From Streptomyces alfalfae (GTDB lineage Bacteria > Actinomycetota > Actinomycetes > Streptomycetales > Streptomycetaceae): 64,000 nt of DNA. Each line of letters begins with the position of its first letter. Within the stretch, counting starts at the first letter, position 1. Of the stretch, positions 1-61,802 are shown one piece after another. The position numbers and the translations under genes were made by a program. The notes under the pieces were generated by a model. It did no database searches, had not been told where the DNA came from, and worked only from the letters and a program-made list of their open reading frames with translations. Location of the stretch: positions 434,001-498,000 of the forward strand of contig NZ_QEXM01000025.1 in the NCBI RefSeq assembly GCF_004127445.1, in the 5' to 3' direction.

Positions 1-191
1 CCGGTGTGGCGACCGTCGTCGGCAGCGGCGTCGCGGGCAGCAACCACGGCAACTCGTCCACCACGCAGCAGCAGGCCGTCGGCAACGGCGCCTCGAACCA
101 GAACAACACCGCCCAGGTGGACGGCTCGGCATGGACCCCGATCTACCAGACGAACGACAACGTCACCGTCAACTTCGCCGAGCTCTGGTGA
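1..191 (+). CDS. 3' end of a small secreted-type protein (5' truncated)
   Basis: The window opens inside this gene, reading from base 3. About 62 C-terminal residues remain and the stop is TGA. The visible part is rich in Gly, Asn, Gln and Ser (motifs SNHGNSS, TQQQAVGNG, SNQNNTAQV) and ends in FAELW, a composition typical of short secreted Streptomyces surface proteins. No catalytic motif is visible. The function is unknown and the N-terminus, including any signal peptide, lies outside the window. Confidence 0.6.
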   Translation, partial: GVATVVGSGVAGSNHGNSSTTQQQAVGNGASNQNNTAQVDGSAWTPIYQTNDNVTVNFAELW

Positions 192-55178: not shown

Positions 55179-56432
55179 GTGAAGGTCCTCGTCATCGGCA
55201 GTGGTGCCCGCGAACACGCCCTGTGCCGCTCTCTGTCCCTCGACCCCGACGTCTCCGAGCTGCACTGCGCCCCCGGCAACGCCGGCATCGCAGAGGTGGC
55301 CGAGACCCACCAGGTCGACGCCCTCGACGGCACCGCCGTGACCGCCCTCGCCGAGCGGCTCGGCGCGGGCCTGGTGATCGTGGGCCCGGAGGCCCCGCTC
55401 GTCGCCGGTGTCGCCGACGCCGTGCGCGCCGCCGGCATCCCCTGCTTCGGCCCGTCCAAGGAGGCCGCGGAGCTCGAGGGTTCCAAGGCGTTCGCCAAGG
55501 ACGTGATGGCGGGCGCGAGCGTGCCGACGGCGCGGTCCTACGTCTGCACCACGCCCGAGCAGGTCGACAAGGCCCTCGACGCCTTCGGCGCGCCGTACGT
55601 CGTCAAGGACGACGGGCTCGCCGCCGGCAAGGGCGTCGTCGTGACGGACGACGTCGAGGCGGCCCGCGCGCACGCCAACGCCTGCGACCGCGTGGTCATC
55701 GAGGAGTTCCTCGACGGCCCCGAGGTCTCCCTCTTCGCGGTCACCGACGGCGAGACGGTCGTCCCGCTCCAGCCCGCCCAGGACTTCAAGCGCGCGCTCG
55801 ACGGCGACGAGGGCCCCAACACGGGCGGGATGGGCGCGTACTCGCCGCTGCCGTGGGCCGACCCGAAGCTAGTCGACGAGGTCATGCGGACCGTGCTCCA
55901 GCCGACGGTCGACGAGCTGCGCCGCCGGGGCACGCCATTCGCTGGGCTGCTGTACGCGGGCCTGGCGATCACGAGCCGCGGCGTACGGGTCATCGAGTTC
56001 AACGCCCGTTTCGGCGACCCCGAGACCCAGGTGGTCCTCGCCCGGCTGAAGACGCCGCTCGGCGGGCTCCTGATGGCCGCGGCCACCGGCAACCTCGCCG
56101 ACCTGCCCCCGCTGCGCTGGAGCGACGACGCCGCGGTGACCGTGGTCGTCGCCTCGCACAACTACCCCGGCACGCCTCGCAAGGGCGACCCCATCGAGGG
56201 GCTCGACGAGGTGGCGGCGCAGGACGCCCCCGACGCGTACGTCCTGCACGCCGGCACCCGGCGCGAGGGTGACGCCGTGGTCAGCGCCGGTGGCCGCGTG
56301 CTGTCCGTGACGGCGACGGGCAGCGGCCTCACCGAGGCCCGGGAGCGCGCGTACGCCGCGCTGTCCCGCATCCGCCTCGACGGTTCGCAGCACCGTACGG
56401 ACATCGCGGCGAAGGCGGCGGCCGAGGCGTGA
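55179..56432 (+). CDS. purD: Phosphoribosylamine-glycine ligase
   Basis: 417 residues, the normal length. N-terminal [18 protein letters not shown], the ATP-grasp motifs [20 protein letters not shown] and [20 protein letters not shown], and [18 protein letters not shown]. It makes GAR, the second step of purine synthesis. purC lies 4.5 kb downstream in the same direction, separated by two unrelated genes. Confidence 0.95.
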
Positions 56433-56742: not shown

Positions 56743-56776
56743 CAGGCCCTGGATCCAGCCTCGGATCCAGGGCCTG
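56743..56776. terminator. Terminator downstream of purD
   Basis: CAGGCCCTGGATCC / GGATCCAGGGCCTG, perfect 14-bp stem with an AGCCTC loop, followed by TCTCCT. Confidence 0.85.
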
Positions 56777-57087: not shown

Positions 57088-58914
57088 GTGCCATCGGTCG
57101 TGTCAGGTCCGGGTGTGGAGGTGGGCGCGCAGGCCGCGCGTTCACGGGCTCTCGCCGTGCTGCGGCTGCGCAGCAGGGCGCTGGCCGTCGCCCTGCTGCC
57201 CGCGGCCGTCGCCGTCGTGCTCGTCGCCGGTGGTGTCATGGGCCATATGGAGGGCCCGGGCTGGGACGTCGCGCGCTGGGCCGTCGCGGTCCTCGCCCTG
57301 CTCGTCCTGCTCGCCGCGGGAGCCGTCGCCCTGGTCGTGGCCAGGGCGAGGCCCGCCCTGAGCCCCACGGTGCCGGTGCCCGAGGAGTCCGCCCCCGATC
57401 TGTACCGCCTGGTCCGTGACCTCGCCGACCGGCTCGACGTGCCTGCGCCCTCGGCGATAGCGCTCACCCCCGACTGCGACAGCTGGCTGGAGGACCGCAC
57501 CCACCCCGCGCACGGCACGCCCGCCGACGCGGCCCCCGCCGAGGACGCCCGCGCCACGCACCGCCCGTCCTTCACCGCGCCCGTGCTCGTCATCGGCTCC
57601 CCGTTCCTGTGGTGGATGCGGGTCGGCGAGCTGCGCGCGGTCCTCGCCCCCGTCGTGGCGGGTACGGGCCCCTCCGCGCACCCCGACATAGCCGCCGCCC
57701 GGCGCTTCGTGCGCGGGCTCGACGCCGCGGTGGCCGACGCCTCGGCCCCCGGCCGCGCCCCCCTGCTCCGCCCACTGCTCGCGGGTGTCGGCTGGGTGGC
57801 CCGGCTGCTGCTGCGCAACTGCCGGGTGCACGCCGCCGAGATGGAGCGCGGCGTCGCCGCGGCCGCCGCCGAGCGCGCCCAGGCCGTGGACTACGGCGTG
57901 CGGATCGTCGCCCAGGAGCAGGTCGGCCTCGCGTACGCGGGGTGGGACCGGCTGCTCACCCGGGTCGCGCTGCCCGCCTGGCGGATGGGCCGCTGGCCGT
58001 CCCGGCTCGACGCGGGCGTGGTCGCCGCGCTGACCGAGCTCTCCCGCAGGGACCGCCTCGCGGAGGGCTTCGCCTCGCGCCTGGGCGAGCGCCCCGCCTG
58101 TGACCTGCTGGAGGAGCCCGGCATGGTGGACGAGGCCGCCTCGCTCCTCGCCGCGCGCCTCTTCCACGGCGGTCCGGCCGAGCCGGGCCCGGACTGGGCC
58201 CCGGTGGCGTGGCAGGAGTATCCGGACGAGGTCGTGGACCGCAAGTGGCGTACGGACGCGGCGCGGCTGCACCGCGTCCTCGACTCCCTCGGCGTCGACC
58301 ACCTCGCGGACCCGGCCGCCGCCGGACCGGAGGGGCCGACCCTCGGCCGCGTCCTCGCCCACCTCACTGCGCCCGACGCCACGGGCGGGCCCGACGCCGT
58401 CGCGACGGCCGACCCGGCCCGCCTCGAAGCCTCCGCGGCGAGCATCGCCCCTGACGACGCCCCCGATGTCGCCCCTGACGACACCTCCGACGACACCTCC
58501 GACGACGCCCCCGATGAGGGCCCCCGCGGCATGCTCGCCGCCTCGCTCACGGCCGAGCTGGCCCGTGAGGAGGCCACGGCCCCGCCTCGCCCGGCCCCCG
58601 CCGGGCAGGGACCTGACGAGGCGCTCTGGGTGGACGGGGCACTGCCCCTCTTCCCGCTCCAGCCGCCCCGCACCGGACGCGAGCTCCTCGCCGACCACGT
58701 GACCGCGATGGTCTGCTGCGCCGCCGTGGACACCGCGGGAGCCGCCCCCGGCCTCGACTGGCTCGACGGCCCCGCCCTACTGATCGGCGGCGAGCGCGCG
58801 GCCGACCTCGCGCCGAGCGTGCGGAGCCTCGTGGAGCGGGGCGACCCCGCACCGCTGCGCGACTGGCTCACCCGCCTCGGCGTCCGCCCGGAGAAGCCGG
58901 TCCGCCTGGCCTGA
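57088..58914 (+). CDS. M48-like membrane protein lacking the HEXXH zinc motif
   Basis: 608 residues from GTG 57088. Two membrane segments (AVALLPAAVAVVLVAGGVMG and a second near 70-90) are followed by APDLYRLVRDLADRLDVPAP, resembling the start of M48 peptidases. Then PVLVIGSPFLWWMRVGELRA aligns with the strand and helix that normally lead into HELGH, but here reads VLAPVVAG, with no zinc ligands. A helical domain follows, then an acidic repeat (DDAPDVAPDDTSDDTSDDAP near 470). Probably a non-catalytic scaffold. GTG 57100 is an alternative start. Confidence 0.7.
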   Translation: MPSVVSGPGVEVGAQAARSRALAVLRLRSRALAVALLPAAVAVVLVAGGVMGHMEGPGWDVARWAVAVLALLVLLAAGAVALVVARARPALSPTVPVPEESAPDLYRLVRDLADRLDVPAPSAIALTPDCDSWLEDRTHPAHGTPADAAPAEDARATHRPSFTAPVLVIGSPFLWWMRVGELRAVLAPVVAGTGPSAHPDIAAARRFVRGLDAAVADASAPGRAPLLRPLLAGVGWVARLLLRNCRVHAAEMERGVAAAAAERAQAVDYGVRIVAQEQVGLAYAGWDRLLTRVALPAWRMGRWPSRLDAGVVAALTELSRRDRLAEGFASRLGERPACDLLEEPGMVDEAASLLAARLFHGGPAEPGPDWAPVAWQEYPDEVVDRKWRTDAARLHRVLDSLGVDHLADPAAAGPEGPTLGRVLAHLTAPDATGGPDAVATADPARLEASAASIAPDDAPDVAPDDTSDDTSDDAPDEGPRGMLAASLTAELAREEATAPPRPAPAGQGPDEALWVDGALPLFPLQPPRTGRELLADHVTAMVCCAAVDTAGAAPGLDWLDGPALLIGGERAADLAPSVRSLVERGDPAPLRDWLTRLGVRPEKPVRLA

Positions 58915-59324
58915 GCGAGCCGCAGCCGCCCAGCCGCCCAGCCGCCCGTCCCCGGGCACCCGCGCCGAGCCGCAGCCGCAGCCGCAGCCGCCCCGAGCCG
59001 CACGCCCCAGCCGCCCGCCCCGGAGCAGCCGCACTCCAAGCGCTCCCGAGCCACGTGGACCGAGCGCCCAGGCCACACGCACCCACCCGAGCCGCACCTA
59101 CCCGAGCCGCACCTACCCGAGCCGCACCTGCCCGAGCCGCACCCACCCGAGCCACACGCGCCCAAGGCGCCGGAGCACAGATATCCGGAAGACAACGTTC
59201 CGATCTCGTCAATTCACGACGAACGGTGACGGCCTGCGTGCGTAATGTGATGTGCTGGGCGTGGCCCCGGTCGTACGTACAGACCGGATACGCCGGCTCG
59301 GGGGAGCGAGGGAGGGAAGGGCAC
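58915..59324 (+). other. Intergenic region with repeats
   Basis: About 410 bases, the first two thirds of repeats. The last 120 bases are less GC-rich and contain the likely promoter of the following gene. No gene is supported. Confidence 0.5.
59086..59160. repeat. 15-bp tandem repeat between membrane protein and DMFase-like gene
   Basis: CCCGAGCCGCACCTA-type units start at 59086, 59101, 59116, 59131 and 59146, the last degenerate. Sequence from 58925 on is of similar composition. The frame of the next gene stays open through it, giving repeats of Thr-Arg-Ala-Ala-Pro, but no ribosome site supports translation there. Confidence 0.85.
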
Positions 59325-60812
59325 ATGGGGCAGGAGCCGATCCGCCGCTGGGAATCGGGGGCGCTCGCGCACGCCGTGTCGGACCCCTTCGGACAGGGCC
59401 CACTGCCCTGGCTCCGCGGCTCCGAGCACTACTTCGACGACACGGGCCAGGTCGTGCCCTGGTACGTCGAGCACGCCTCGCCCCCGGGGGCCGACATCCC
59501 GGCGGCCCGCACCGGAGGCCCGCTGAACGCCGACGACGTGCGCCGCCAGATCAAGGGCTTCACCTCCACCGGAGCCGCCGCTCCCGGCGAGGCCATCGAC
59601 TTCCACGTCACGGTCGACCCGCCCCAGCAGTTCAGCGTCGACATCTACCGCATCGGGCACTACGGCGGCGACGGCGCGTCGAAGATCACCACGAGTCCCC
59701 GCCTGTCCGGCATCGTCCAGCCCGCCCCCCTCACCGCGGACCGCACCGTCTCCTGCCACCACTGGTGGCTCTCCTGGCGGCTGCAGATCCCGAGCTACTG
59801 GAACGTCGGGGCGTATGTGGCGGTGCTGACCACCGCCGACGGGTACCGCTCGCACGTCCCCTTCACGGTCCGCGACGACCACCCCGCCGACCTCCTGCTG
59901 CTCCTGCCGGACGTCACCTGGCAGGCGTACAACCTCTATCCCGAGGACGGCCGCACGGGCGCGAGTCTCTACCACGCCTGGGACGAGCAGGGACGTCTCC
60001 TCGGCGAGGGCGAGGCCGCCGTCACGGTCTCCTTCGACCGGCCGTTCGCCGGGGCCGGCCTGCCGCTCCACGTGGGCCACGCCTACGACTTCATCCGCTG
60101 GGCCGAGCGGTACGGATACGACCTCGCGTACGCGGACGCCCGCGACCTGCACGCGGGCCGCATCGACCCCGGGCGCTACCGCGGCCTGGTCTTCCCCGGC
60201 CACGACGAGTACTGGTCACCCGCCATGCGCCGCACCGCCGAGCTGGCCCGCGACGGCGGCACCTCCCTGGTCTTCCTCTCCGCCAACACCATGTACTGGC
60301 AGGTGGAGCTGGCCCCCTCCCCGTCCGGCGTCCCCGACCGCCTGCTGACCTGCCGCAAGCGCCGCGGCCCCGGCCGCCCTGCCCTCTGGCGCGAGCGCGA
60401 CGGCGACAAGACCGCCGAGCAGCAGCTGATCGGCATCCAGTACGCGGGCCGGGTCCCCGAGCCGCACCCCCTGGTCGTGCGCAACGCCGACCACTGGCTC
60501 TGGGAGGCGACGGGGGCGCACGAGGGCGACGAGCTGGACGGCCTCGTCGCGGGCGAGGCCGACCGCTACTTCCCGCGGACGCCGCTCCCCGAGCACCAGG
60601 GCCGCATCCTGCTCGCCCACTCCCCGTACACGGACACCGAGGGCGCCAAGCGCCACCAGGAGACCTCGCTCTACCGCGCCCCCTCGGGCGCCCTGGTCTT
60701 CGCCTCCGGCACCTTCGCCTGGTCCCCCGCGCTCGACCGTCCGGGCCATGTGGACACGCGCGTGCAGCGCGCCACGGCCAATCTCCTCGACCGCATCTGC
60801 AAGCGGGACTGA
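59325..60812 (+). CDS. N,N-dimethylformamidase beta-subunit-like protein
   Basis: 495 residues. Sequence such as SVDIYRIGHYGGDGASKITT, LLLLPDVTWQAYNLYPEDGR and VFPGHDEYWSPAMRRTAELA matches the family typed on the large subunit of dimethylformamidase, with the iron-ligand-like Tyr, Glu and His residues in the HDEYW region. No small alpha subunit is adjacent, so amidase activity is uncertain, and no signal peptide is seen. ATG 59325 is chosen for GGAGGGAAGG; the frame is open upstream through repeats only. Its place between purD and purC suggests no purine role. Confidence 0.8.
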   Translation: MGQEPIRRWESGALAHAVSDPFGQGPLPWLRGSEHYFDDTGQVVPWYVEHASPPGADIPAARTGGPLNADDVRRQIKGFTSTGAAAPGEAIDFHVTVDPPQQFSVDIYRIGHYGGDGASKITTSPRLSGIVQPAPLTADRTVSCHHWWLSWRLQIPSYWNVGAYVAVLTTADGYRSHVPFTVRDDHPADLLLLLPDVTWQAYNLYPEDGRTGASLYHAWDEQGRLLGEGEAAVTVSFDRPFAGAGLPLHVGHAYDFIRWAERYGYDLAYADARDLHAGRIDPGRYRGLVFPGHDEYWSPAMRRTAELARDGGTSLVFLSANTMYWQVELAPSPSGVPDRLLTCRKRRGPGRPALWRERDGDKTAEQQLIGIQYAGRVPEPHPLVVRNADHWLWEATGAHEGDELDGLVAGEADRYFPRTPLPEHQGRILLAHSPYTDTEGAKRHQETSLYRAPSGALVFASGTFAWSPALDRPGHVDTRVQRATANLLDRICKRD

Positions 60813-60905: not shown

Positions 60906-61802
60906 GTGTCCGGATTCGTAGAAAAGCCCGAGCCTCTCGATGTGCCGGGTCTGGTGCACCTCCACACCGGCAAGGTGCGCGAGCTGTACCAGAACGAGGC
61001 GGGCGACCTCGTCATGGTCGCCAGCGACCGGCTCTCCGCCTACGACTGGGTGCTCCCCACGGAGATCCCCGACAAGGGCCGGGTGCTCACCCAGCTCTCC
61101 CTGTGGTGGTTCGACCAGCTCGCCGACCTGGTCCCCAACCACGTCGTCTCCACGGACCTGCCCGAAGGCGCCCCCGCCGACTGGGCGGGCCGCACCCTGG
61201 TCTGCAAGTCCCTCCAGATGATCCCGGTCGAGTGCGTGGCCCGCGGTTACCTCACCGGGTCGGGGCTCGTGGAGTACAACGCCTCCCGCACGGTCTGCGG
61301 CCTCGCGCTGCCCGAGGGCCTCACCGACGGCTCCGAGCTGCCCGCCCCGATCTTCACGCCCGCCGCGAAGGCCGCCGTCGGCGAGCACGATGAGAACGTG
61401 AGCTATGAGGAGGTCGCCCGCCAGGTCGGCGCCGACACGGCGGCCAAGCTGCGCCAGACGACCCTCGCCGTCTACAGCAGGGCGCGGGACACCGCCCGTG
61501 AGCGCGGTCTGATCCTCGCCGACACGAAGTTCGAGTTCGGCTTCGACGGCGAGGCCCTGATCCTCGGCGACGAGGTCCTGACGCCGGACTCGTCGCGCTT
61601 CTGGCCCGCCGGCCAGTGGGAGCCGGGCCACGCCCAGCCCAGCTACGACAAGCAGTTCGTCCGCGACTGGCTGACCTCGCCGGCCTCCGGCTGGGACCGC
61701 GGGAGCGAGCAGCCGCCGCCCGCGCTGCCGCAGGACGTGGTGGACGCCACACGCGCCAAGTACATCGAGGCGTACGAGCGGCTGACCGGCACCACCTGGT
61801 AG
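60906..61802 (+). CDS. purC: Phosphoribosylaminoimidazole-succinocarboxamide synthase
   Basis: 298 residues, normal length. HLHTGKVRELYQNEAGDLVM and VASDRLSAYDWVLPTEIPDK at the N-terminus, IPVECVARGYLTGSGLVEYN and LADTKFEFGFDGEALILGDE further on, all SAICAR synthetase motifs. It condenses CAIR and aspartate in purine synthesis. GGGAGG 4 bases before the GTG start. Upstream 93 bases contain its own promoter region. Confidence 0.95.
   Translation: MSGFVEKPEPLDVPGLVHLHTGKVRELYQNEAGDLVMVASDRLSAYDWVLPTEIPDKGRVLTQLSLWWFDQLADLVPNHVVSTDLPEGAPADWAGRTLVCKSLQMIPVECVARGYLTGSGLVEYNASRTVCGLALPEGLTDGSELPAPIFTPAAKAAVGEHDENVSYEEVARQVGADTAAKLRQTTLAVYSRARDTARERGLILADTKFEFGFDGEALILGDEVLTPDSSRFWPAGQWEPGHAQPSYDKQFVRDWLTSPASGWDRGSEQPPPALPQDVVDATRAKYIEAYERLTGTTW

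Follow-up and report, generated by a model that had tools for sequence, protein, structure and literature searches.

Sequence comparison points to an M48 pseudopeptidase origin for SarA, a membrane-anchored protein of Streptomyces

Results

The sarA locus and its neighbours

The stretch of DNA analysed here (the window) comprises 64,000 nucleotides of Streptomyces alfalfae. The first-pass annotation had read one of its open reading frames as a membrane protein resembling M48 peptidases, and that frame is present, with a GTG start and 608 codons (Table 1). The true start is probably the GTG at 57100, 12 nt downstream, which would give a protein of 604 aa; we favour it because the N-termini of the orthologues, which read [VM][ST]G.G.E or similar, match that position. 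The gene had been placed between purD and purC, which is right as far as it goes, although a DMFA2_C-domain gene also sits in the interval. No match was found with PADLOC, up to E 0.1, for either sarA or the DMFA2_C gene.

This arrangement is largely shared across the genus. Synteny was read in 80 named loci, these being the best matches listed, all from Streptomyces; purD lies upstream of sarA in every one of them, the DMFA2_C gene was detected nearby in 78, and purC lies downstream in 75, the remaining five being contigs of 5.5 kb or less. SCO4069, the Streptomyces coelicolor gene discussed below, presumably also adjoins purD. In a second family of the order, purD adjoins sarA in all five loci and purC was found in four of the five. 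A gene for adenylosuccinate lyase (purB) separates sarA from purC in both of the second-family loci examined further, and in one second-family locus an ORF for an ECF-type sigma factor lies just downstream of sarA (L198:9465-10136).

Two repeats flank the gene in the window. Between purD and sarA there is a perfect inverted repeat of 14 nt with a 6-nt loop (56743-56776), a possible purD terminator, with a left arm similar to the sigma-E-like motif core found upstream of sarA elsewhere. A tandem repeat with a 15-nt unit lies after sarA and before the DMFA2_C gene (59078-59157; 5.3 copies, 92% match).

Table 1. Coordinates of genes and protein features at the sarA locus of the window.
Feature	Coordinates	Strand	Basis
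purD, conserved upstream neighbour	55179..56432 (start approximate)	+	TIGR00877, 4e-146; synteny
sarA orthologue, 608 aa; membrane-anchored, almost certainly M48-derived pseudopeptidase	57088..58914	+	ORF, GTG start
Membrane hairpin, hydrophobic stretches at about residues 27-54 and 57-91	57166..57360	+	hydropathy; model helices 8-50 and 57-86
Edge-strand region, residues 118-137 (PDCDSWL); equivalent of the M48 substrate-binding strand	57439..57498	+	alignment
Strand and dead active-site helix, residues 164-193	57577..57666	+	conservation, 23 members
PVVAG (P188-V189-V190-A191-G192) in place of HELGH	57649..57663	+	hhalign, MAFFT
Invariant Glu E253, at the alignment position of the third M48 zinc ligand	57844..57846	+	two joint MAFFT alignments
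Acidic repeat in variable-length linker	58445..58526	+	repeat detection and orthologue alignment
C-terminal domain, about residues 528-602, common to HExxH-bearing large M48 proteins	58669..58893	+	profile alignment
DMFA2_C-domain gene, downstream neighbour in Streptomyces	59253..60812 (start approximate)	+	PF20254, 3.6e-105
purC	60906..61802	+	domain match and synteny

Identification with SarA of S. coelicolor

A published primer and a published promoter identify the window gene as the orthologue of S. coelicolor SarA (SCO4069). The C-terminal reverse primer for SCO4069 encodes EKPVRLV followed by a stop, and the window protein ends in EKPVRLA; the string EKPVRL occurs in 11 of 13 same-genus alignment rows, the window included. 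The published sco4069 promoter agrees at 24 of 25 bases with the sequence preceding the orthologue in another locus (L129). A sigma-E-like motif (GAAC-15..18-CGTC) precedes sarA in 26 of the 80 named loci, which are related to one another, against one of 80 simple shuffles; the 26 (among L076-L155) have mostly one common core. Neither the strict nor a looser form was found upstream of sarA in the window, and we use the motif only to tie the family to SCO4069, which is listed among 91 putative sigma-E targets (PMC6767563).

The gene and its phenotypes are already in the literature. SarA has been cited as affecting antibiotics and sporulation since a 2008 report (Ou et al.). Deletion or frameshift of sarA is said in citing papers to reduce undecylprodigiosin (RED) and transposon insertions to reduce actinorhodin, and frameshifts in sarA are reported from 8 of 16 resequenced RED-deficient mutants. 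In 2024 SarA was overexpressed as an activator, and new metabolites were reported in five strains. Its function and mechanism are termed unknown in the published work available. A transposon screen reports that insertions in sarA, htpX and ftsH2 all lower actinorhodin (PMC6585502); the authors relate the ftsH2 and htpX effect to membrane-protein quality control, do not link SarA to it, and group sarA with transcriptional regulation rather than with HtpX. In that screen 71 genes have more than one actinorhodin-lowering insertion and 263 have one, and because so many other genes give this phenotype we regard its sharing by the three genes as suggestive only. No published link of SarA to M48 or to pseudopeptidases was found in the literature searched, outside which most subscription journals lie.

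SarA is homologous to large M48 proteins

SarA scores above the cut-off of no M48 model in Pfam or NCBIfam. PF01435 goes unreported up to E 10, and NCBIfam gives only HtpX models (E 0.095 and 0.17), matched along some 30 residues that precede the catalytic motif. Membership of the Pfam EI24/CysZ family was rejected, the match (E 0.0039) scoring 17.8 bits against a cut-off of 32. Searches of PDB sequences gave no match with phmmer to E 10 or with the family profile to E 1. When the class was searched with the family profile, 28 same-genus genomes matched strongly and others more weakly. Nine of the weaker matches were fetched: five proved to be large M48 proteins bearing HELGH, and we take the other four to be HtpX-like. 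The best match outside the genus in the class sample is a HELGH protein (9e-12). As a control, the large M48 relatives (L067-L071) do pass the PF01435 cut-off.

Direct comparison of the families gives a much clearer signal. When 23 SarA members were aligned by hhalign with five HExxH relatives, the probability was 98.5 and the E-value 3.5e-15 over 392 columns, the C-terminal domain included, and the score of 120.2 stands against at most 22.0 in 40 column shuffles and 22.6 for the reversed alignment. BLASTP of the window protein with one relative gave an E-value of 9e-11, calculated for that single comparison. The SarA family also matched five HtpX-like proteins (E 4.6e-6, shuffles scoring at most 20.0) over 46 columns. 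These alignments indicate that SarA shares ancestry with M48 proteins of about 500 aa that bear HELGH.

Other features described in the first-pass annotation are borne out. Both membrane anchors are present as hydrophobic stretches, and flanking Arg residues suggest that the N-terminus and main domain are cytosolic. The M48-like surroundings of the site were said to be kept, and a strand (166-170), a helix (179-191) and the edge-strand region around PDCDSWL can all be recognised; within the last, D131 is aligned with N in 15 of 16 HExxH relatives. The long acidic repeat is real but cannot be called a family feature, as the linker that bears it is highly variable in length, is absent in several orthologues and has no invariant position among 97 (residues 431-527) in the 23 members.

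The active site has been lost throughout the family

The segment aligned with HELGH had been read as APVVAG; the aligned residues proper are PVVAG, the leading A being the residue before them. In a joint MAFFT alignment the first His is replaced by Pro (P188) and the Glu by Val (V189), or in some by Leu, in 16 of 16 SarA members. The second His corresponds to G192 by hhalign, or by MAFFT to position 193, which is T, M or L (T193 in the window), and neither is His. We fetched 202 loci, not all from distinct genomes, and 186 of these matched the family profile at E <= 1e-5. All 168 SarA-type loci among them have P..A[GAS] where HExxH would stand, so that loss of the site is not a matter of chance and the question whether every homologue lacks HExxH receives the same answer for each of the 168. 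The other 18 profile-matching loci have H at the first site position, with 12 of the 18 gapped there.

The description of SarA as lacking zinc ligands needs one reservation. Neither zinc His nor the catalytic Glu survives, yet at the place of the third ligand the two joint MAFFT alignments put E253, an invariant Glu that 167 of the 168 SarA-type loci carry and for which the remaining one has a gap. The AD of the ExxAD motif is out of register at this point, and the profile alignment places E253 differently in most relatives. The description is thus nearly, perhaps not strictly, right. As to a zinc site rebuilt from other residues, the 23 aligned members have no invariant His, and a classical zinc peptidase site in SarA is therefore unlikely.

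Conservation, distribution and phylogeny

Conservation was measured in an alignment of 23 SarA members from two families of the order. Overall, 87 of 608 positions are invariant, and the highest density falls on the former active site, where 19 of the 30 residues from 164 to 193 do not vary; of all 20-residue stretches, those beginning at 164 and 165 rank highest. Invariant positions also make up 10 of 21 in the edge region (118-138) and 20 of 45 in residues 301-345. Many of the invariant residues, for example C130, D131, W133, F173 and P188, belong to SarA alone and are not found in the HExxH relatives. That conservation peaks at the former active site argues for a retained binding role.

The first search located sarA in 29 of 31 genomes, missing it in a same-genus genome of about 1140 contigs (G017) and in a member of a third family (G019). 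In the larger sample, in which the site was read in the fetched loci, 146 of 147 genomes of the order have sarA, 132 of them from the same genus and 14 from the second family, and G019 is the sole genome without it. The window's own genome encodes one full-length member. In a joint tree SarA forms one clade (100/100) on a stem of 1.57 changes per column, and falls on the same side as the large M48 proteins, separate from the HtpX-like rows at 96/93; its nesting inside the large M48 group has support of 46/32 in a tree where long branches are flagged. Replacement of the two zinc His and of the catalytic Glu probably predates the divergence of the two families sampled in the order. A distant relative of the large M48 group (L171, G201:C88) has HEIAY instead of HExxH with E..AD kept, and may have lost a zinc ligand independently of SarA.

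Predicted structure

An AlphaFold2 model of full-length SarA, built from family sequences only, reached a pLDDT of 81.8 and a pTM of 0.78. Foldseek listed ZMPSTE24 and Ste24p first, at E 0.48 and 2.9 and with low TM-scores. VIA-align 2 was run on the Foldseek candidates and gave Z-scores of 6.6 for Ste24p, 6.3 for abylysin and the HtpX domain, 6.1 for selecase, 5.9 for ZMPSTE24 and BepA and 5.6 for BlaR1, all in the range below 8 that the tool's own note calls weak. M48/M56-like zinc peptidases account for 11 of the 15 rows with Z of at least 5, some being repeats of one protein, and 8cwy, an unrelated helical design, ties with them at 6.1. We take abylysin, selecase and 3c37 to be filed with M48, and several of the M48/M56 row assignments are likewise our own. 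The HtpX domain (3cqb) superposed over 90 of 101 residues at 3.2 A and abylysin over 99 of 105 at 2.7 A, again at Z below 8.

A domain model built with HExxH relatives added had a pLDDT of 85.4. Foldseek listed no M48 chain for it up to E 10; with VIA-align 2, 14 of 25 rows with Z of at least 5 are M48/M56-like, and the unrelated helical chains 6azy (6.4), 8cwy (6.3) and 6paj (6.2) tie with them. Structure prediction against HtpX and Ste24, which had been proposed as a check, gave a divided answer: Ste24p and the HtpX domain are among the top rows, but every Z-score is below 8 and Foldseek is weak or lists no M48. Such scores are weak, and we rested the homology of SarA to M48 on sequence. With hhalign and its controls, BLASTP and the site loss taken together, and the structure comparison adding a little, the pseudopeptidase reading of the first-pass annotation is well supported, and SarA is almost certainly M48-derived in origin.

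Discussion

What this analysis adds is the M48-pseudopeptidase origin of a protein whose gene and phenotype were already known. SarA is, on this reading, a bacterial pseudopeptidase that is nearly order-wide and whose former active site is its most constrained part. Its placement raises concrete questions: which chains the dead groove holds, and whether HtpX or FtsH is involved.

We suggest, as a model with about an even chance of being correct, that SarA is a cytosol-facing, membrane-anchored pseudopeptidase that serves the quality control of membrane proteins, or signalling, by binding clients through its retained edge strand. A membrane or signalling protein with an exposed chain would be bound by the cytosolic domain, the chain adding as a further strand to the edge strand and staying uncut. 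SarA might then stabilise this client, aid its assembly, or pass it to the membrane proteases HtpX or FtsH, and loss of SarA would disturb envelope homeostasis and so affect antibiotic production and sporulation. A chaperone or adaptor function of this kind would fit the retained edge strand together with the lowered actinorhodin of sarA, htpX and ftsH2 insertions. The model joins the homology, catalytic loss, conservation, distribution and synteny described here to the phenotype and sigma-E status given in published papers; its topology, client binding and hand-over are what we infer. We advance more tentatively, and think rather less likely, the fuller proposal that SarA is the founding order-wide bacterial M48 pseudopeptidase, a holdase or adaptor at the cytosolic face working with HtpX and FtsH and coupling sigma-E envelope stress to antibiotics and sporulation.

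Other accounts of the dead site can be weighed against this model. SarA could play no part in quality control and instead keep a regulator, for instance an anti-sigma factor or one that governs development, tethered to the membrane until envelope stress sets it free. The reported effects of sarA on sporulation and antibiotics, its status as a putative sigma-E target and the new metabolites reported from five overexpressing strains would all suit such a role; the groove could hold a regulator, and an ECF-type sigma factor ORF follows sarA in the second-family locus noted above. However, the neighbours detected in the named Streptomyces loci, in a scan limited to these genes, are purD, the DMFA2_C gene and purC, and the phenotype reported for htpX and ftsH2 insertions suits quality control at least equally well. 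We consider tethering unlikely, yet the most credible of the alternatives. Inactive homologues tune active proteases in other protease families, and SarA might in the same way partner or dominantly regulate an active M48 protease such as HtpX in a mixed complex of adjusted activity. The window's genome does encode an HtpX-like M48 protein with HELSH, and in S. coelicolor actinorhodin is reported to fall on insertion into either sarA or htpX; but the interaction is putative, SarA clusters with the large M48 proteins and not with HtpX, and those large proteins were not found in the same genome at E 1e-20. This arrangement seems to us a good deal more doubtful than tethering.

The remaining accounts dispute the pseudopeptidase reading itself. 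SarA might still be an enzyme whose metal or catalytic site is built from different residues, and the family alignment offers the invariant D129, C130, D131, E253, C338 and D339 for this; E253 is kept in all loci but the gapped one. With no His invariant across the 23 members, a classical zinc peptidase site is unlikely, and we regard continued catalysis as improbable. Least probable is that the M48 resemblance is coincidental and SarA an unrelated two-helix membrane protein. The weak EI24/CysZ match (E 0.0039) would speak for this, but the hhalign score far exceeds that of the shuffles, the C-terminal domain is shared with the large M48 proteins, and most top rows for the full-length model are M48/M56-like structures.

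The large M48 proteins of the class, of about 500 aa (L067-L071, L156-L170), have N-terminal hydrophobic helices, the M48 domain and a C-terminal domain in common with SarA; they keep HExxH and E..AD, whereas SarA lacks HExxH and also the SPYDSHP segment. HtpX and SarA both have a membrane hairpin followed by an APxLYRxVRxLA...PxP region, but HtpX has HExxH and a different C-terminus, and its profile match to SarA spans only 46 columns. Functional parallels come from BepA, an Escherichia coli M48 protein that has a TPR domain, and from ZMPSTE24, in which the catalytic site is intact and the membrane helices are many more. The edge strand next to the active site of BepA is reported to contact LptD and to be needed for chaperone-like function, and the same source connects this function with proteolysis being repressed; the E137Q variant, dead as a protease, is described there as weak in that function (PMC8423444), a point against the client-holding model. 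SarA, against which the BepA structure scores Z 5.9, keeps the equivalent strand under strong constraint, and the likeness would lie in client binding at that edge; BepA, in contrast, is described as an active protease of the periplasm, and SarA is without the cutting residues. For ZMPSTE24, a review gives an antiviral function independent of enzymatic activity (PMC11798991), and the likeness to SarA would be that of an M48 protein with a role apart from catalysis.
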